The translations under genes were made by a program, and so were the position numbers. Shown here piece after piece: positions 15,359-58,873 of a DNA stretch of 64,000 nt. Position 1 is the first letter of the stretch. Every line of letters begins with the position of its first letter. Origin of the DNA: Candidatus Gastranaerophilales bacterium (GTDB taxonomy: Bacteria > Cyanobacteriota > Vampirovibrionia > Gastranaerophilales > Gastranaerophilaceae). The stretch spans positions 1-64,000 of the forward strand of contig CALVED010000008.1 of assembly GCA_944326485.1 (NCBI GenBank), in the 5' to 3' direction. The notes under the pieces are model-generated. The model did not search any database and was not told the origin of the DNA. It saw only the letters and a program-made list of their open reading frames with translations.

Positions 15359-16450
15359 TTAACCAGATGCCTCACTGCCTGAATATACTCCTCTTATATA
15401 ATGCATAAGTTCATTAGGATTATCAGAATGATTTAAAGCAACTTCTTTTGTTATTAATCCTTTTTTTATTAAATCAAATAAACATTGGTTGAAAGTAAGC
15501 ATATCATTATATCCGCCATTTCTAACCAATTTATATATTTCTTCAAGTTCATCTTTTAAAAGAAAATCTTTAATTGTAGGAGTGGAAAATAATACTTCAA
15601 CAGCCGGAATTCTTCCTTTACCATTAACTTTAGGTAGGAGTTTTTGAGAAATTGTACCTCTAAATACTTCTGCAAATTGACTTCTTACGGCTTCTCTTTC
15701 TGATGGATTAAAGAAACTTAGAACCCTGTTAATTGTTTGTATTGCATTAAATGTGTGAAGTGTGGCAAAAATAAGGTGGCCTGTTTCTGCTGCATGGAGT
15801 GCACTTCTAACTGTTTCCATATCTCTTATTTCACCTATTAATATTACATTTGGATCTTGTCTTAAAGCATATTTTAATCCATCTATATAATTTGCTGTAT
15901 CTATACCTATTTGTCTTTGTGTAAAAATTGATTTTTTGCTTTTGTAAACATATTCGATAGGATCTTCAATGGTAACAATATGTTTTTTATAATTATTATT
16001 AATATGTTCTAATATTGAAGCAATAGTAGTAGATTTTCCACTGCCGGCAACACCTGTTACAAGTACTATACCGTTTTCGAATTGTGAGAATTTTTCTATT
16101 GATTCAGGTAAATTTAATTCTTGAAAAGATGGTATATTAAAAGATACTAAACGAATTGTCATGGAATGATATCCAAATGACATTGCTAAATTTACCCTAA
16201 AACGTGCAAGTCCTTCAATTTCGTATGGGAAATCCGAGTCATAAGACTTAAATATCTTATCTCTCATTGATATAGGTGCCATTGTATCAATTGCCTGCAT
16301 CATGTCTTCTTCTGTCACAGGAGAAAGTTTTGATTTTATTATTTTTCCATCTATTCTAAAAGATGGGACTTCACCTACTATAAAATGAAGGTCAGAAGCA
16401 CCAAGTTCTACTGATTTTTTTAATAATGAATCTATTGTATATTCACTCAT
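15359..16450 (-). CDS. pilT: Type IV pilus retraction ATPase PilT
   Basis: PilT is the hexameric cytoplasmic ATPase that depolymerises type IV pili. The 363 residues contain the N-terminal PAS-like domain, Walker A GVAGSGKST (133-141), the Asp box (IVTIEDPIEYVY), Walker B ILIGEIRD (203-210) and the His box AETGHLIFATLHT (221-233), all intact. The C-terminal third carries the family's helical region. No PilB or PilC is adjacent, but the window also has a pilin-like gene at 35.96 kb and a degenerate PilB-like gene at 54.27 kb. It is divergent from smc. Confidence 0.94.
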   Translation of the reverse strand: MSEYTIDSLLKKSVELGASDLHFIVGEVPSFRIDGKIIKSKLSPVTEEDMMQAIDTMAPISMRDKIFKSYDSDFPYEIEGLARFRVNLAMSFGYHSMTIRLVSFNIPSFQELNLPESIEKFSQFENGIVLVTGVAGSGKSTTIASILEHINNNYKKHIVTIEDPIEYVYKSKKSIFTQRQIGIDTANYIDGLKYALRQDPNVILIGEIRDMETVRSALHAAETGHLIFATLHTFNAIQTINRVLSFFNPSEREAVRSQFAEVFRGTISQKLLPKVNGKGRIPAVEVLFSTPTIKDFLLKDELEEIYKLVRNGGYNDMLTFNQCLFDLIKKGLITKEVALNHSDNPNELMHYIRGVYSGSEASG

Positions 16451-30961: not shown

Positions 30962-32563
30962 ATGGCACAAGATATAGCAGAACAAATATATAATTTACAG
31001 AGAAATGTATTAGAACTTCATAATTTATTTGATTTAAATATGGTAGCGAATCAATCACGTTCTATTGAAGATTTGCTGTCAAAAGTATCATTTCTTATAA
31101 AATCATCATTAAATCTTACTAATATAAGGTTTTTTGTTAACAATAATGGAATATTTCAAACTAAAAATATAGCATCAGGGAGTGATTTAGACTTTGAATT
31201 TAATGGTGATAATGCTCCTTTTCTTCAAAGTCAAAATGAAGAAATAATAAAGATTATAAATCAAGATGGAAGTTATATATATAAAGCATTTTGGACGGCA
31301 TATAGACTTCAGGAACTTCAATGCGAATATATAAAAGTATTTTATAATGATGATAATCCGTTTTGTGTTGCTTTTATAGGAAAGAAAGAAGATAATGCAG
31401 AATTTAGTGAAGAAGATATGAAATATCTTAATCAAATTTTTAACTGTATAGATCCTATTTTAAGAAAATTTATAAAAAACAAAGAACAAGAAGCAAAAAT
31501 AATGGATTTAAATAAAACACTTCATAATTTATCCATTTTATATAATATTTCTCAGGCTGTAAATTTTATAGATGATTTAAAAAGGTTAATAAGTGTAATA
31601 TTAGATAAAGCAATTGATACAGTAAATGCAGAAAAAGGTTCATTAATGCTTTATGATCAATCAGATAATACTTTGCAAGTAAAAGTAGTATATGGTTTAA
31701 AAGACAAAAAGCATGAAGATGATATAAATAATGGGCTTGTTGAGTGTCAAAAAATACAACCTGATGTAGGAATTGCAGGAAAAGTATATACCGAGAAACG
31801 TTCAATCATAACAAATCTTGGCGGGAAAGATCCGAGGTTTAATCAATTTAATGGTGATAATAATGTTTCTTCCTTAATATGTGTTCCATTAATAGCTAAA
31901 GGTGAATGCATAGGAATTATAAATATAACTAACAAAAAAAATGGTAAGTTATTTAATAAAAAAGATTTAGAGTTTATAGAAGCATTGGCAAATCAAGCTG
32001 CAATTGCAGTAGATAATGCACAATTATATGAGCTTGCAACAAAAGATGGTTTGACAAAATTATATATTCATAGACATTTTTATTTTTTATTAGAGTCAGA
32101 AATAAAGAGAGTTCAAAGATATCATCACGTATTATCGTTAATAATGCTTGATATAGATGATTTTAAGAAGGTCAACGATACATATGGTCATTTAGTTGGT
32201 GATATGGTTTTAAAGGAAATAGCAACAACTATACAAAAGACAATTAGGCACGTTGATATACCTGCAAGATATGGCGGTGAAGAGTTTACAATAATACTTC
32301 CGGAAACAGCTGCAATTAATGCTGTTACAATAGCTGAAAGGTTAAGACAAAAAATAGGTGAGATAGCAGTACAAGTAGATGAAAATACAATAATAAGACC
32401 TACGGTAAGTATTGGAATAGCAGAGTATCCAAATGCTGCAGATAATATAAAAGATTTAATTGATTTTGCAGATAAAGCCTTATATATGTCAAAAGAAAAT
32501 GGAAAGAATTGTATACATTTATATTTTGACGGACAATATACAAGATATAATAATATGAAATAG
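30962..32563 (+). CDS. GAF-GGDEF diguanylate cyclase
   Basis: The product has 533 residues and makes cyclic di-GMP from two GTP. A GAF-like N-terminal domain (about 20-165) is followed by a second clear GAF domain (about 190-355) and a GGDEF domain (about 370-530). The active-site loop is GGEEF at 438-442, and an inhibitory I-site RHVD (429-432) lies five residues upstream, so product feedback is expected. No membrane segment is present; the ligand of the GAF domains is unknown. A TATAAT at 30945-30950 lies only 11 bases before the ATG and no ribosome site is visible, so the transcript may be leaderless. Confidence 0.92.
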   Translation: MAQDIAEQIYNLQRNVLELHNLFDLNMVANQSRSIEDLLSKVSFLIKSSLNLTNIRFFVNNNGIFQTKNIASGSDLDFEFNGDNAPFLQSQNEEIIKIINQDGSYIYKAFWTAYRLQELQCEYIKVFYNDDNPFCVAFIGKKEDNAEFSEEDMKYLNQIFNCIDPILRKFIKNKEQEAKIMDLNKTLHNLSILYNISQAVNFIDDLKRLISVILDKAIDTVNAEKGSLMLYDQSDNTLQVKVVYGLKDKKHEDDINNGLVECQKIQPDVGIAGKVYTEKRSIITNLGGKDPRFNQFNGDNNVSSLICVPLIAKGECIGIINITNKKNGKLFNKKDLEFIEALANQAAIAVDNAQLYELATKDGLTKLYIHRHFYFLLESEIKRVQRYHHVLSLIMLDIDDFKKVNDTYGHLVGDMVLKEIATTIQKTIRHVDIPARYGGEEFTIILPETAAINAVTIAERLRQKIGEIAVQVDENTIIRPTVSIGIAEYPNAADNIKDLIDFADKALYMSKENGKNCIHLYFDGQYTRYNNMK

Positions 32564-51845: not shown

Positions 51846-53927
51846 ATGGCAAAAGTAGTTTTAATATCTGAAGATGAAAAATTAATTGAAGAAATTAGTG
51901 AAATAACAGCTTCATCAGGTTTTGATATCTATGTAATAGATTCAATAGAAGAGGCAGAAGAAAATATAGCTTCTGATAATACTGATATAGTAATTTTTGA
52001 TGAAGAAAAACCTGAAATAATAAATTTTTTACGCAATTTAAAATTGCAATTACAAACAAAAGATATACGTTCAATATTAATACTTGGCAGAGAGAATAAT
52101 AATTATGATTATTTAAAATATACAAATAATTACATAACTAAACCAATAAATGAAAAAATTTTATTATCGGTACTGAATTCTTGTTTGCAATTGAGAGAAA
52201 CATTAAGGATATTATCTAAAAATAATAATGACTTGGCAAAAAGTCTATACCAGTTAAATGTGCTTTATACAACAGGAACACAGCTGGCAGGTTCATTGGA
52301 TAAAACAAAATTAATAGAAATAACGACAGATGGGTTAGATCAAAGTTTATCATTATCATTAAGTTATGCATTAATTCTAAATGAAGTAAATGATATAAAA
52401 CTAATTATAAAATCCTTATTTCCAATTTCTGAAAGATTAGAGAATGCAATAAAATTAAGGGCATTAATAAATTATAAAAATTTATTCTCAATAAATCCTA
52501 AAATCGATGATATAGAGGTAATAAAATATAATAAAGATCAATATGGAGAATATGATTTAAATGTATTCGGTTTTGATAATTTATTTGCGCCAATAAATAT
52601 AAAGAATAAATTTTACGGAATAATAGAAGTATTTAGAGAATCTGATTTTATGCAAGATGATACAAAATGTTTTACAACATTAGTAAAACAGGTATCGTTG
52701 CCATTAGAAAGTGCAATTTTATATGAAGAGATAAAAGATACAAATATAAAGTTAGAGAAGTTAGAAAGATTAAAGTCAGAGTTTATCTCAATTGTATCAC
52801 ACGAATTAAGGACTCCTTTAACATCTATAAACAGTGCATTAGATATTATCTTAAAGGGTACAACTGGCGAGATAAATGATGCAACAGAAAAATTTTTAAA
52901 TTTAGCGAAAAGAAATGTAACAAGATTATCGGCAATAATATATGATTTATTAGATTTATCAAAAATAGAAGCCGGTAAGATGGAATTCAGATTTGAGAAA
53001 ACGAATATAAATCTCCCAGTGGAATTGGTAAAGAATACATTAGAAAGCTTGGCAAAAGAACAGAATATAACAATAAAGACGGAACTTGATAATAATTTAG
53101 ATTTTGTATATATAGATACACAAAGAATGGAACAAGTTATAACAAATTTAGTATCGAATGCGATAAAGTTTACAAGGGAAAATGGAACAATAGAAATAAA
53201 AACAAGAAAAATAAAAGCAGAAGACATAAAAAATAATTCATTTTTTGTTGAAATTCCTTCTAAACTAAGTAAAGAATATGTAGAGATTAGTGTAAAAGAT
53301 AATGGAATAGGCATTGCAAAAGAAAATTGGAATAAAGTATTTGAGCAATTTAAACAAATAGAGAATTCTTTAAGCAGAAAAGTTGGCGGTTCAGGTTTAG
53401 GTTTGCCTATAGCAAAAAGATTAATGGATGCTCATAAAGGATTTATATGGTTAGATAGTGAGCTAAATAAAGGAACAACATTTTATTTAGCTATACCAAT
53501 AATGAATGAAGAAGAAATTTTTTTCCATTCACTAGAGCAAGATATACAAAAAGCGAAACAAGAACATTTAAATATATCATTAATTTCGTTAAGAGAAAAT
53601 ATAGTTGAAGGAAATGCTTTAATAGATAAAATATTGGAAGAAAACCTCATAAGAAAAACAAATATATTTAAAGAATACAGAATTGAAAAAGACAATAAAA
53701 GATACTATTATTCTTATGCAGTAGATATGGATTCATTTGTTTTTGATTTTGAGGTAAGGAAATTAAAAACGTATATAGAAACAAAAAATCAGGAGTATCC
53801 AGAGAGTGATATAGTATATTCTGCAGTATTATATCCTCAAGATAGTGAAGATATAGAAGATTTAATAATAAAAATAAATAATTTTTCTAAAGAGGTAAGG
53901 GATGAAGAAAATACTAATAGTAGATGA
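51846..53927 (+). CDS. Hybrid-type sensor histidine kinase, soluble
   Basis: The product has 693 residues. Residues 1-115 form a receiver-like fold (VVLISEDEKLIEEISE; DIVIFDEEKP), then a GAF-like domain (about 140-290), HisKA with phospho-acceptor H319 in SIVSHELRTPLTS, HATPase with N box NLVSNAIKFT, G1 DNGIGIA and G2 GGSGLGLPIAK, and a C-terminal region (about 560-693) resembling a degenerate GGDEF domain without its motif. No membrane segment is present, so it senses internal signals. Its last 26 bases overlap the response-regulator gene. Confidence 0.88.
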   Translation: MAKVVLISEDEKLIEEISEITASSGFDIYVIDSIEEAEENIASDNTDIVIFDEEKPEIINFLRNLKLQLQTKDIRSILILGRENNNYDYLKYTNNYITKPINEKILLSVLNSCLQLRETLRILSKNNNDLAKSLYQLNVLYTTGTQLAGSLDKTKLIEITTDGLDQSLSLSLSYALILNEVNDIKLIIKSLFPISERLENAIKLRALINYKNLFSINPKIDDIEVIKYNKDQYGEYDLNVFGFDNLFAPINIKNKFYGIIEVFRESDFMQDDTKCFTTLVKQVSLPLESAILYEEIKDTNIKLEKLERLKSEFISIVSHELRTPLTSINSALDIILKGTTGEINDATEKFLNLAKRNVTRLSAIIYDLLDLSKIEAGKMEFRFEKTNINLPVELVKNTLESLAKEQNITIKTELDNNLDFVYIDTQRMEQVITNLVSNAIKFTRENGTIEIKTRKIKAEDIKNNSFFVEIPSKLSKEYVEISVKDNGIGIAKENWNKVFEQFKQIENSLSRKVGGSGLGLPIAKRLMDAHKGFIWLDSELNKGTTFYLAIPIMNEEEIFFHSLEQDIQKAKQEHLNISLISLRENIVEGNALIDKILEENLIRKTNIFKEYRIEKDNKRYYYSYAVDMDSFVFDFEVRKLKTYIETKNQEYPESDIVYSAVLYPQDSEDIEDLIIKINNFSKEVRDEENTNSR

Positions 53928-54264
53928 TGAAGCAGATATAATAGAGATATTGCAGTTTGTATTGGAAGCACAGGGATATGAGTGTGTAACGGCAATGGAT
54001 GGCGAAACGGGTTTAAATTTAGCAAGAGAAATTAATCCTGATTTAATAATATTAGATGTAATGATGCCAAAGATAAACGGATATAAAATAAGCAGGTTGT
54101 TAAAATATGATAATAAATATAAGGATATTCCAATATTAATGATCACAGCTCGTTCACAAGAAGAAGATAAAGTTATTGGAGAAGAGACTGGTGCAAATGA
54201 ATATATAACAAAGCCTTTTCAAGTAGATTATGTATTAGAAAAAGTTAAAAGTTATTTAGGATAA
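53902..54264 (+). CDS. CheY-like single-domain response regulator
   Basis: The product has 120 residues, a bare receiver: acidic pocket D8-D9, phospho-acceptor D52 in LIILDVMMPK, T82 and K104. There is no output domain. It starts inside the kinase gene with AGAGGTAAGG upstream and is followed after 1-4 bases by the PilB-like gene, so the three form one operon. Confidence 0.94.
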   Translation: MKKILIVDDEADIIEILQFVLEAQGYECVTAMDGETGLNLAREINPDLIILDVMMPKINGYKISRLLKYDNKYKDIPILMITARSQEEDKVIGEETGANEYITKPFQVDYVLEKVKSYLG

Positions 54265-54268
54265 TGTG

Positions 54269-55657
54269 ATGGAGCTTGTAACAAATAAGACATTAGAGAA
54301 ATTAAAATATGATTTAGTCCGAGATGGATTAATAAGTTATGAAGATATAGAAAAAGCTCATGAACTTGCTGTTTCGCAGAATGTTAATATAGGTCATATA
54401 TTGATAAAGTCTAATTTAATCTCGGAAGAAAAGCTTCTTAAATTTTTAGAAAGCAAACTGCACATACCTTATGTTGATTTAAAAGATTATACATTAGATT
54501 CAAGATGTTTATCTTACATAAATTTTAATGATGCACAAAAATATAAGATAATTCCATTATTTAAAATAGAAAATGTTTTAACAGTTGCAATGGCAGATCC
54601 GTTAGATTTATTTGCAATAGATAAAATAGTAGAAAAAACAGGATGCGATATAGAACCTGTGATAAGTGCCGAGTCATCTGTTTTAAAGAAGATAGAAGAA
54701 TATTATAAAAGTGATAGTTCTGTAGGTGAAATAAATATAGAAAATTCAGAAACAACATTTGATTGGCAGGAAGAGCTTCATAATGATGTATTATCAGATG
54801 AACATATACAGATATTAATACGTGCAATATTAAAGCAGGCAATATTAAATAATGTACATGAAATGTTTTTTGAACATACGCCTAATGGGTTGAGTGTGAA
54901 TTTTCGAGTAAATTCAGAGATAGTGAATACTGGACAGATACCATCTGTATTGGTAGTTCCTTTTATTTCTAAGTTAAAAACATTATCAGATCTGGATGCA
55001 ACAGTATGTGAATTGCCGCAACTTGGTAAGTTAATATTTAAAGTAGATGATTTATTGTTAACAGCAAGTATATCTGCATTTCCTACAATAAATGGTGAGA
55101 GAATATCATTAAAGATATATAAACCGCCCAAGAAGTTAGAAGATATAGGCTTGACACCTTCTCAGATAGATATAATAAGAAATGAGACCAAGGAAGCTGG
55201 GATAATATTAGTTTGTGGTTCATCATTGTCAGGGAAAACACATATTATTTATTCTATATTGACTGATATTGCAGACTCAAATAAAAATATAATGACAATA
55301 GAGTCTATAGCTAAATATAATATAGAGAATGTAAATCAATGCGAGTTAAATGAGAATATAGGATTTAATATAGAAAAAGCAATGAGATTTATAGAGTTCC
55401 AATCCCCTGATTTAATATACTTTGAAGGTATAACAAGTAAAATAGCATTAGATTATTTTAGTTCATTGGTATTTAAGAATAAGGTTTTAATAACAGAATT
55501 CTTGGCAGATAATATGGCAGATTTAAATAAGAAATTATCATATAATGATTTTGAAATGTTTAAGCCATTAATAAATTGTATAATATTTGTTCATAACCAA
55601 AAAAGCATAGAAGTTTTTGATAGAAATGAAATAAAGAAATTTATGGCTATAGTATAA
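54269..55657 (+). CDS. Divergent PilB/GspE-like ATPase, probably degenerate
   Basis: The product has 462 residues from the ATG at 54269 (a GTG at 54266 lies directly before). The N-terminal 150 residues match the MshEN/GspE-N type (SYEDIEKAHELAVSQNVNIG; IPLFKIENVLTVAMADPLDL), a domain that binds cyclic di-GMP in several relatives. The core has a near-normal Walker A (GSSLSGKT, 317-324) but the Walker B region reads DLIYFEGI instead of GEIRD, the His box is not recognisable, and the zinc tetracysteine is missing. It may regulate rather than power assembly. It is the last gene of the kinase-regulator operon. Confidence 0.75.
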   Translation: MELVTNKTLEKLKYDLVRDGLISYEDIEKAHELAVSQNVNIGHILIKSNLISEEKLLKFLESKLHIPYVDLKDYTLDSRCLSYINFNDAQKYKIIPLFKIENVLTVAMADPLDLFAIDKIVEKTGCDIEPVISAESSVLKKIEEYYKSDSSVGEINIENSETTFDWQEELHNDVLSDEHIQILIRAILKQAILNNVHEMFFEHTPNGLSVNFRVNSEIVNTGQIPSVLVVPFISKLKTLSDLDATVCELPQLGKLIFKVDDLLLTASISAFPTINGERISLKIYKPPKKLEDIGLTPSQIDIIRNETKEAGIILVCGSSLSGKTHIIYSILTDIADSNKNIMTIESIAKYNIENVNQCELNENIGFNIEKAMRFIEFQSPDLIYFEGITSKIALDYFSSLVFKNKVLITEFLADNMADLNKKLSYNDFEMFKPLINCIIFVHNQKSIEVFDRNEIKKFMAIV

Positions 55658-55795: not shown

Positions 55796-58700
55796 ATGAG
55801 AATATCAAAAATAACTAGTATTCAAAACAACAAAAGAATAGCAAATAAACAAGTAAGTGTAGAGAATAAACAGAATCAGAAAAATATAAACATAACAAAT
55901 CCTTCATTATTATTCCAGCCATATATAGGAAGAGATATAGTATCATTTAGAGCTAAAAATTATAGTGATACATTAAAAGAAAATTATTATCAACTTCCAA
56001 TAGGATGTTCACCTGATGCATTTCAAATAGATGCCGGTAAAGCATTAAACGAAGGTAAAACAGTATTAGTCGAAGCTCCAACAGGTACAGGTAAAACAGC
56101 AATAGCATATTATGTATCAACAAAGAATATGTCAGAAGGAAAGAAGACATTTTATACAGCGCCATTAAAAGCATTAAGCAATCAAAAGTTAAATGAGTTC
56201 AAAAAAATATACGGAGATGAAAATATAGGTATTCTAACAGGAGATAGAAGAGAGAATACAGAAGCTCCGATAATAATAATGACTACAGAAGTATATAGAA
56301 ATATGGCGTTATCAAATTTGTACGGAGAAGAAAATCCCTTGATGAAAAACTTGGGGACAGTTATTTTTGATGAATTTCATTATTTAGGAGATAAAGATAG
56401 GGGTCCTGTATGGGAAGAGGCAATGATGTTTACCCCAAAGGATGTACAAACATTAGAGTTAAGTGCAACAATAGGTAATCCTGCAGAATTAAAGAATTGG
56501 ATAAGCAGTTTAAGAGGAAATAGTAGCGTAGAATTAGTTTCTATCCCTTCAGAAGCAAGACATGTTCCATTGTCTTTTGATATGTTAACAACAAAGGCAT
56601 ATGAAAAATCAGAAAAGAGAATTGCAAAAGCAATAAGAAGAGGAGAAACTCCTGATACAGAAGATACATTAAAGGTAAGAAAACCTAAGTTAAATGATTT
56701 TAAAGCGGCAGTTGAGAAATTAAATGAAGAAGATAAATTGCCGGCTATTTTCTTTATATTTAGTAAGAAATATTCAAGAGAAGTTCTTGATCATATGGCA
56801 AGAAATGGTGCTGATTTAACAAGTGAAGCAGAAAAAGAAGAAATAGAGAAAATAGTAAATAGATATAAACAAGAAAAATATATCGGTACAGATTTAGATA
56901 TAGAAGCACTAAAGAAAGGTTATGCAATTCATAATTCAGGAATTATTCCTGATCAGAAAGAGTTAATAGAGGAATTATTCCAGAAGAAACTATTGAAAGC
57001 AGTAATTGCAACTGAGACATTAGCTGCTGGGATAAATATGCCTGCTAAGACAGTTGTAATATCAAGTCCATATAAACCATGTGATGACAATGATGATATA
57101 AAGAAATTATATGCAGAATCATTGATAAAAATGGAAGAAGAAGAGGAAGAAGATTCCAATGAAGAAGTACAAGAAAAAGGAAAAGAAGATAAAAAAAGAG
57201 AGCAAACACCCGTAAGGATGCTAACTGCAAATGAATTTAAACAGATGGCAGGCAGAGCAGGAAGAAGGGGTATAGATACAATCGGCTATGTTTATACAAT
57301 GCCTACAGACAGGGCATCAGAACAAGATTTCTTATATTTAGAAGTAACAGATTGTAATGCAATAAAGAGTAATTATAATCCTGATTACGGATTTTTGTCA
57401 GGATATTATGAACATAATACCGGAGATAATAATCTTTTAGATGTATATGGAAAGACATTTTATGCTTATAGCAAGGATGCAAATGTAAAATCATCAAGAA
57501 TAGATGAATTAATGACAATAAGTGATCGAAAGAAACAAGTATTGTTAGAAAGAGGCTATTTAACGGATACAGAAGGATATATAGAACCAACGAAGTTGTC
57601 TAAAATGGCTTCAAGAATAAAAGGCTATGATACACTATTACTTACAGAAACGGTAGCCTCCAAAGAGTTAAAAGGAATTTCCCCTGAAGCATTAGCAATG
57701 TTTGCAGGAGCTATAGCAAATCCATCAAAATCAGATGATACAACAATAGGATATAGTACTGATTTGTCACCGGTATTTCTAAAAGCACAGGAAAGTGTTG
57801 TTGATATTGAAGGACGATTAAAGTCAGAAATAAATTCGATTTTAAGAAAGTTTGGAAAAGAATTAGATAGTTTTGCAAACTATGACGATATGCTTGCATT
57901 TGCAAATAAGATAGAAAAGCCTGAGATATCAAGAGAAGAAATAGCGATGGAAATAAGCAGGGCTGAAGCAAGAAGAGCTAAAATGTATCAAATAATTAAA
58001 ACAACGGGAAGTTATTCCGGAGAAGATTTAGTTAAGGCTTTGCAGGCGGGTGAAGTTGTTCCAACAAAAGCATTGGAAAATCACTTAAAATTAGTAGATA
58101 ACTATAAATCAAGATTAAGAGGCAAGTCTATAGATGAACATATTCAACAATTAAGATTGGAATTAAAAGAAGTAGATACTGGTGCAAAAGGAAATAAAGC
58201 AAAGGCTAGAATTGCGAGAAAGCAAAAAGAAATAGAAGATGCAATAAATACGGCAATAAATATGAAGTATTTAGATGAAAATCTTTTAGAAGCATTATCA
58301 AGAAATCATCAGTTCATAAAGAAGAATCCGCCTCAACAGGTAAAAAATGACTATAGAGATATAGAAATGGATTATATAAAATTAACAATGAGAGATTTGT
58401 TAATTCAGAAAATAGAGGCTCTAAGAGAACTGGAAACAGAAGATAAAGAAGATGTAAGAAGCGATATAGATAAAGATAGCAGACAAATAAATAAAATTTT
58501 TAAGAGTATGTTATCAAGAAGCGCATCAATCTATAAGACAGAAATGACAGAAGGTGTAAAATCAAATCCATTAAGAAGTAATTTAGATAGTGCCAGAATT
58601 GCATATATCTTGGCGTATTTAAATGAGGAAAACCAATACGATTCAATGTCAAATTGGATGCAATTAATAAAAGTTATGTCAGAGCAAATGGATGAAGGAA

Positions 58701-58873
58701 GTGTATATAGAAATATAATGCAGACAGCAGATTTGTTGAGCCAGATTGGAGAGATGGCGCAAATTGGCGAGAATAATGCAGAAAGTAAGGAAGAACAAGA
58801 TTATTATCATGAGCTAAAGAAAACCGCATCTGATGCAAGAATGTTAATAATGAAAAAACCAATTAAGATATAA
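55796..58873 (+). CDS. Large Ski2-like DExH-box helicase
   Basis: The product has 1025 residues. A 70-residue N-terminal extension carries DIVSFRAKN (48-56), the Ser-Phe signature. The helicase core has Walker A PTGTGKT (95-101), DEFH at 192-195, the SAT motif LSATIG, and the motif V-VI region TLAAGINMPAKT with QMAGRAGRRG. An acidic insertion at about 440-470 interrupts the second RecA domain. The C-terminal 450 residues are helical and include charged coil. It resembles Ski2/Mtr4-family enzymes known in Cyanobacteria, suggesting an RNA-processing role; the substrate is unknown. Confidence 0.88.
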   Translation: MRISKITSIQNNKRIANKQVSVENKQNQKNINITNPSLLFQPYIGRDIVSFRAKNYSDTLKENYYQLPIGCSPDAFQIDAGKALNEGKTVLVEAPTGTGKTAIAYYVSTKNMSEGKKTFYTAPLKALSNQKLNEFKKIYGDENIGILTGDRRENTEAPIIIMTTEVYRNMALSNLYGEENPLMKNLGTVIFDEFHYLGDKDRGPVWEEAMMFTPKDVQTLELSATIGNPAELKNWISSLRGNSSVELVSIPSEARHVPLSFDMLTTKAYEKSEKRIAKAIRRGETPDTEDTLKVRKPKLNDFKAAVEKLNEEDKLPAIFFIFSKKYSREVLDHMARNGADLTSEAEKEEIEKIVNRYKQEKYIGTDLDIEALKKGYAIHNSGIIPDQKELIEELFQKKLLKAVIATETLAAGINMPAKTVVISSPYKPCDDNDDIKKLYAESLIKMEEEEEEDSNEEVQEKGKEDKKREQTPVRMLTANEFKQMAGRAGRRGIDTIGYVYTMPTDRASEQDFLYLEVTDCNAIKSNYNPDYGFLSGYYEHNTGDNNLLDVYGKTFYAYSKDANVKSSRIDELMTISDRKKQVLLERGYLTDTEGYIEPTKLSKMASRIKGYDTLLLTETVASKELKGISPEALAMFAGAIANPSKSDDTTIGYSTDLSPVFLKAQESVVDIEGRLKSEINSILRKFGKELDSFANYDDMLAFANKIEKPEISREEIAMEISRAEARRAKMYQIIKTTGSYSGEDLVKALQAGEVVPTKALENHLKLVDNYKSRLRGKSIDEHIQQLRLELKEVDTGAKGNKAKARIARKQKEIEDAINTAINMKYLDENLLEALSRNHQFIKKNPPQQVKNDYRDIEMDYIKLTMRDLLIQKIEALRELETEDKEDVRSDIDKDSRQINKIFKSMLSRSASIYKTEMTEGVKSNPLRSNLDSARIAYILAYLNEENQYDSMSNWMQLIKVMSEQMDEGSVYRNIMQTADLLSQIGEMAQIGENNAESKEEQDYYHELKKTASDARMLIMKKPIKI

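Follow-up and report, generated by a model that had tools for sequence, protein, structure and literature searches.

What is the role of a protein that descends from a pilus motor, no longer has the residues for ATP hydrolysis and is encoded directly behind a histidine kinase and a receiver? The question is raised by a locus on the Candidatus Gastranaerophilales contig CALVED010000008.1 (assembly GCA_944326485.1), of which we analysed a stretch of 64,000 nt, called the window below. The host order consists of gut-dwelling, non-photosynthetic relatives of cyanobacteria. Three genes follow one another on the + strand: HK (51846..53927; 693 aa; open reading frame call and Pfam), coding for a soluble histidine kinase; REC (53902..54264; 120 aa), coding for a lone CheY-like receiver; and PILX (from a GTG at 54266 or an ATG at 54269 to 55657; 463 or 462 aa), coding for a putative pseudo-ATPase derived from PilB, the extension ATPase of type IV pili (T4P). 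By the open reading frame calls, HK and REC share 26 nt. Since PILX begins 1 or 4 nt past REC, depending on whether the GTG or the ATG is taken as the start, the overlap that a preliminary description of the locus had ascribed to all these genes is restricted to the first pair. Judging from sequence, we consider it very probable that the three genes are a genuine, conserved module and that PILX is catalytically dead. Beyond that, we favour the reading in which PILX is the output adaptor of the HK-REC pathway, docking through its N-terminal domain and probably acting on pili; to this reading as a whole we assign a probability of about 0.5.

Losses and retentions in PILX

PILX shares with PilB/TfpB (TIGR02538, PF00437 + PF05157) the fold and the domain order N1D-N2D-CTD. 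Pfam detects MshEN (68.1 bits) and T2SSE (102.1 bits), the latter matching no more than positions 4-215 of the 370-position profile, and the best NCBIfam model is that of PilB itself, TIGR02538, at 180 bits against a cut-off of 675. Besides this low score, PILX differs from PilB/TfpB in having lost the hydrolysis residues and the zinc part, in an inverted pattern of constraint and in forming a separate clade. Motifs were counted in 81 own-family members, namely the window and the 80 of 134 relatives that the scan kept, aligned to the host genome's own PilB. The alignment of other families has 18 rows, to which L175-L177 were added for counts of 21; L037, lacking the N-terminus, was excluded from N-terminal counts, and L120 is a duplicate of L116.

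The Walker B motif of PilB, VGEIRD, has become FEGITS in the window PILX (within the remnant PDLIYFEGI, 55406..55432). At the position of the catalytic glutamate none of the 81 own-family proteins has this residue (G in 73, S in 6, N and T in 1 each), and a substitute glutamate, E386, stands one residue ahead in all of them. In 13 of 21 other-family proteins the position itself retains E, giving a double glutamate E-E. The Asp box TIEDPxE keeps its first E, and its D is replaced by S or A and its second E by K, each in 81/81. The histidine of the His box (equivalent KVLITEFLADN, 55481..55513; H to L in the window) is present in 0/81 own-family proteins and 0/18 other-family rows, and RQDPD of PilB reads FQSPD in the window PILX. 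Arginines conserved in PilB are replaced in the N2D part of the motor (54797..55126); of the motor arginines, that at 248 in N2D has become E and that at 377 F, both in 81/81. Soon after the His-box equivalent the gene stops, ahead of the C-terminal cysteine region in which the host's PilB has CPHC and CEKC, presumably a zinc motif. Walker A (GSSLSGKT, 55217..55240), in the form GxxxxGK[ST], is kept in 81/81, and nucleotide binding may matter for that reason. It is missing in 4 of 21 other-family proteins, namely all three of family f2 (L116, L118, L119) and L157 of f13. Since f2 and L157 stand apart on the tree, Walker A was lost at least twice, and in all four cases the gene is still intact.

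Apart from the Walker B glutamate, the core losses are common to the 18 other-family rows. Being the same in all 81 own-family members, the losses are not a matter of chance, and 141 of the 462 columns of the own-family alignment are nearly invariant. The alignments show that the residues predicted to serve ATP hydrolysis were lost from PILX before the order diversified. Comparison with the host's own PilB agrees with the preliminary description that Walker B, His box and zinc site are gone, and that the MshEN-like N-terminal domain (N1D, 54269..54718; Pfam, alignment and fold match) and Walker A remain; its proposed check, conservation of the losses in relatives, gave the counts above.

In profile searches, 142 of the order's 146 genomes had a PILX match with E below 1e-140, namely 122/124 genomes of the own family and 20/22 of other families; G160, G195, G242 and G418 had none. 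Because PILX members served to build the profiles, their own matches follow by construction. Beyond the order no PILX was found in the phylum (292 genomes; the highest-scoring frame, 639 aa and PilB-like, reached 200 bits, compared with at least 488 for PILX) or in the class (194 genomes; best outside match 111 bits). In the tree, 26 PILX rows form one clade apart from 17 PilB rows (support 100/100), on a long branch separate from all 17, and the tree names neither PilB type of the order as the source. Two such types, with Walker B GETRD or GEIRD (L125-L137 versus L001 and L139-L154), occur in f11-f14 genomes. For ten PILX pairs the ratio of nonsynonymous to synonymous substitution rates (dN/dS) was 0.007-0.048, which indicates strong purifying selection. 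A duplicate decaying without function would explain the stepwise loss of motor motifs, but it is contradicted by these ratios, by the presence of the gene in 142/146 genomes and by the nearly invariant columns. We regard its probability as negligible, and within the own family dN/dS and conservation refute it. The proposal of a regulatory pseudo-ATPase, in turn, is well supported by the conserved losses, the strongly purifying selection and the conserved operon described next.

The HK-REC-PILX module

HK has no membrane segment predicted from hydropathy. It has HisKA (52773-52976) and HATPase_c (53115-53498) domains with the H, N, G1 and G2 boxes of a two-component histidine kinase; H, N and G1 are kept in 68/68 orthologues and G2 in 67/68. 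Its N-terminus (about 51858-52172) resembles a degenerate receiver, scoring in Pfam 18.5 bits, below the cut-off of 30.2. A C-terminal extension of about 140 aa (53499-53924) is conserved in many orthologues. Compared by hhalign with GGDEF, the extension gave a probability of 48.7 and P of 1.8e-4, where an unrelated control gave 2.4 and 0.02; this is no more than suggestive of a relict or degenerate GGDEF domain. REC consists of Response_reg only (98.5 bits, residues 4-115) and has the features of a single-domain response regulator, a phospho-acceptor D with DD, T and K; D8, D9, D52, T82 and K104 are kept in 96/96 orthologues. The alignments show that HK and REC keep all the residues predicted for catalysis and phosphoryl acceptance.

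The arrangement of the genes is conserved as well. Adjacency was judged without L165 and L166, which are cut by contig ends. REC could be located in 76 out of 80 sister loci, and in 72 of those 76 the distance to PILX downstream of it is at most 42 nt. Of the four loci without REC, two end at a contig edge and two, L081 and L084, have PILX without REC. HK was found in 68/80 loci, within 105 nt of REC in 60/68. The order HK-REC-PILX also occurs in families f2, f12, f13, f14 and f15 and in one f11 genome. Two of the genomes devoid of PILX, G160 and G418, also have no HK and no close REC; G433 and G244 have PILX and no HK match. Taken together, gene content and order show that HK, REC and PILX are, as far as sequence comparison can tell, an ancient order-wide module. 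Independent loss without conservation of the operon, named beforehand as grounds for abandoning the idea of a regulatory pseudo-ATPase, is not what the relatives show: both the losses and the operon are conserved.

Other arrangements were seen around PILX. In five f12 loci (L166, L167, L168, L176, L177) it is located directly upstream of ATP synthase genes, which we take to be atpD and that of the epsilon subunit, away from HK-REC. At the window locus a 1025-aa DEAD-type helicase is encoded 3′ of PILX (55796-58873), and its orthologue follows in many, not all, own-family loci. A scan for promoter-like sites gave 42 versus 35.4 expected, from which we draw no inference.

The N-terminal domain and cyclic di-GMP

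Which part of PILX, then, is held most tightly? In 12 genomes that have both proteins, the mean pairwise identity of N1D, N2D and CTD is 63, 47 and 51% for PILX and 51, 88 and 87% for PilB. PILX thus reverses the pattern of constraint seen in PilB, its N-terminal domain being conserved best and its motor domains least. The columns invariant across the order likewise cluster in the N-terminal domain, from NKTxEKLKYDLVR onward. Such an identity pattern is what one expects if the docking domain does the work of the protein and the motor is a vestige. The N-terminal domain of GspE, a relative of PilB, docks GspL.

The AlphaFold2 model of PILX (34 sequences) has a predicted local distance difference test (pLDDT) score of 86 and a predicted template modelling (pTM) score of 0.74, and the nearest solved chains are PilF and PilB. 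VIA-align matched the model to PilB 5zfr over 280 residues (Z 19.9, root-mean-square deviation (rmsd) 3.8) and to GspE 4pht over 342 residues (Z 20.0); in the latter case the rmsd is 18.6, hence the placement of the domains differs from 4pht. The N-terminal domain matches that of MshE, 5htl (Z 18.9, 138 residues, rmsd 2.0, 27% identity), and the N-domain of Xanthomonas PilB, 7lko (fold Z 15.3).

Resemblance to MshE invites the idea, put forward in the preliminary description, that PILX senses cyclic di-GMP (c-di-GMP) and so tunes pili. By Pfam score and by the match to 5htl PILX does have the MshEN fold, in common with the MshEN/GSPII receptor domain (PF05157, 5htl), and proteins with GGDEF domains occur in all 58 genomes searched (own and relatives), seven of them in the host genome. 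The test of binding potential was a relaxed form of the two tandem 24-residue MshEN motifs as described in the accessible part of PMC5013675. The tandem motif is present in the host's own PilB and in 9 of 17 GEIRD-type PilB proteins in all, and in none of 14 of the GETRD type; it was found in 0/80 own-family and 0/20 other-family PILX proteins. In motif I the glycine is missing in 80/80 and the last-position residue in 74/80, and in motif II R is replaced by N and Q by K throughout (80/80). In Thermus PilF GSPII-A, according to the portion of PMC12002112 available, small motif deviations abolish c-di-GMP binding. Loss of the motif, with both positive and negative controls, rules PILX out as a candidate c-di-GMP receptor as far as the motif goes, and we rate this reading as very improbable. 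As to a ligand source, the window does encode a GAF-GGDEF diguanylate cyclase (GGEEF; 30962..32563, + strand), as had been pointed out, but nothing links it specially to PILX, GGDEF proteins being found in every genome searched. Among the PilB proteins themselves, the f1, f2 and f15 rows read have the GEIRD type only, and the c-di-GMP motif is kept in some of that type.

Losing the motif does not conflict with a protein-docking role. In Xanthomonas, the available section of PMC8389850 reports, the PilB N-domain without the c-di-GMP motif binds PilZ, and so motif loss and docking are compatible. PILX resembles this N-domain (7lko) in being MshEN-like without the motif, where in Xanthomonas the domain is a protein-docking site. 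The likeness ends there: the partner of PILX would be a receiver, and Xanthomonas PilB is an active motor.

A proposed two-component output and its possible targets

We propose that PILX, a descendant of the T4P extension ATPase PilB, is a pseudo-enzyme specific to this lineage and would serve as the output of a cytoplasmic two-component pathway. HK would phosphorylate REC; REC, phosphorylated or not, would bind PILX; and PILX would dock on a cellular target through its N-terminal domain. Where Walker A remains, ATP would at most be bound, with a structural or conformational role as cofactor. That REC acts on PILX seems likely to us, and in this sense the earlier suggestion that PILX senses phosphorylation is plausible, given that the acceptor residues of REC are kept in 96/96 orthologues and that REC adjoins PILX. 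The likeliest target would be the pilus extension machine (PilB or the stator), with PILX as a phosphorylation-gated competitor or adaptor; whether the pilus is the target we see as an even question.

There are precedents for the parts of this scheme. In Synechocystis, of the same phylum, the CheY-like PixE is proposed to bind PilB1 (excerpt of the review PMC7690835). PixE and the other PATAN-CheY proteins are like REC in being a CheY-like output aimed at a PilB-family protein, whereas REC has no PATAN domain and its neighbour is a dead paralogue, not PilB1. Myxococcus xanthus PilB signals without ATPase activity (PMC5544727, in the part accessible); its function, like that proposed for PILX, is separable from ATP hydrolysis, but there both tasks fall to one active PilB, and here the genome has a canonical PilB plus a dedicated dead paralogue. 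The 1.9-Mb host genome encodes this PilB in a secretin-PilB-PilC operon, along with two PilT-type genes, one of them in the window (15359..16450, - strand; GVAGSGKS, GEIRD, HTFN). For a termite-gut relative, the accessible text of PMC5877343 reports pilA, pilB, pilC, pilT and pilD and mentions no second PilB.

Several observations weigh against the favoured reading. An AlphaFold2 model of a read-through REC-PILX chain has a pTM of only 0.48, compared with 0.74 for PILX alone, and shows no confident docking. Walker A is invariant in the own family, so that nucleotide binding may still matter. Two own-family loci (L081, L084) carry PILX alone, and in f11 and f12 genomes other than those with the full order HK and REC stand together and PILX lies apart from them, five times next to atpD. 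As for the pilus, searches for PilB, PilT and T2SSF all came back empty for genome G180, which is 97% complete and whose only TIGR02538 match is PILX itself; yet it keeps an intact REC-PILX, flanked by the kinase gene in convergent orientation (L216, G180:C1:46000-58000). Conversely, full PilB and T2SSF are present in each of the four genomes that lack PILX. Pili genes thus persist without PILX, and the two are separable both ways. G180 aside, co-occurrence is uninformative, since PILX and pili are both near-universal: T2SSF (PilC-like) has a match in 144/146 genomes of the order. In the loci read, no T4P genes stand beside PILX. The pilus is kept as the likeliest target on the strength of descent and precedent, not of co-occurrence.

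The same pathway might instead act on something other than the pilus, with PILX a signalling scaffold freed from it, for example for a surface polysaccharide, polarity or metabolic target. Such a role would fit G180, the absence of T4P neighbours and the Myxococcus case, where PilB signals to polysaccharide production independently of pilus assembly (same partial source, PMC5544727). Still, G180 is a single good genome, the other T2SSF-less one, G240, being only 82% complete; T2SSF is so widespread that profiles cannot separate the two readings; and descent from PilB favours a pilus partner. We think a non-pilus target somewhat unlikely. Alternatively, PILX could be a non-hydrolysing or weakly active subunit of mixed rings with PilB, a built-in brake comparable to PilU/PilT or TfpB/PilB. 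Its Walker A and first Asp-box E are invariant in 81/81, the motor fold appears to be retained in the predicted model, and mixed ATPase complexes are discussed for multiple PilB homologues (section 11 of the review PMC11656802). However, the replaced motor arginines, motor domains that are the least conserved part, the loss of Walker A in f2 and L157 and the occurrence of PILX in a genome without PilB make this quite unlikely. Less likely again is a reversed flow, in which PILX, as sensor or scaffold, would control the kinase or the receiver, and the receiver would act elsewhere, for example on the true PilB. Consistent with it, HK and REC remain paired where PILX has moved away, and PixE is thought to act directly on PilB1 (again the part of PMC7690835 available); but within the own family no pair is as tight as REC-PILX, and several loci keep these two without a nearby HK.

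Pseudo-enzymes are well known among kinases. In open-licence PubMed Central (titles and partial abstracts, with subscription journals and preprints outside the search) we found no description of a pseudo-enzyme of the PilB/GspE family or of an HK-REC-PILX module. The module varies known parts in a new way. A whole order may have converted a duplicate of the pilus motor into a signal output and nothing else, with its own kinase-receiver pair, a docking domain as its core and a function that persists even without pili; this would be a class of two-component output that is neither DNA-binding, enzymatic nor motor. We consider this tentative picture rather doubtful in its entirety. PILX appears to be an order-wide pseudo-enzyme that predates the split of the families and is tied to a kinase and a receiver. 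It would represent a natural separation of the docking function of PilB from its motor function. The module would also make it testable how, in uncultured Cyanobacteriota of the gut, the behaviour of pili or of the cell surface can be steered by a CheY-like protein.

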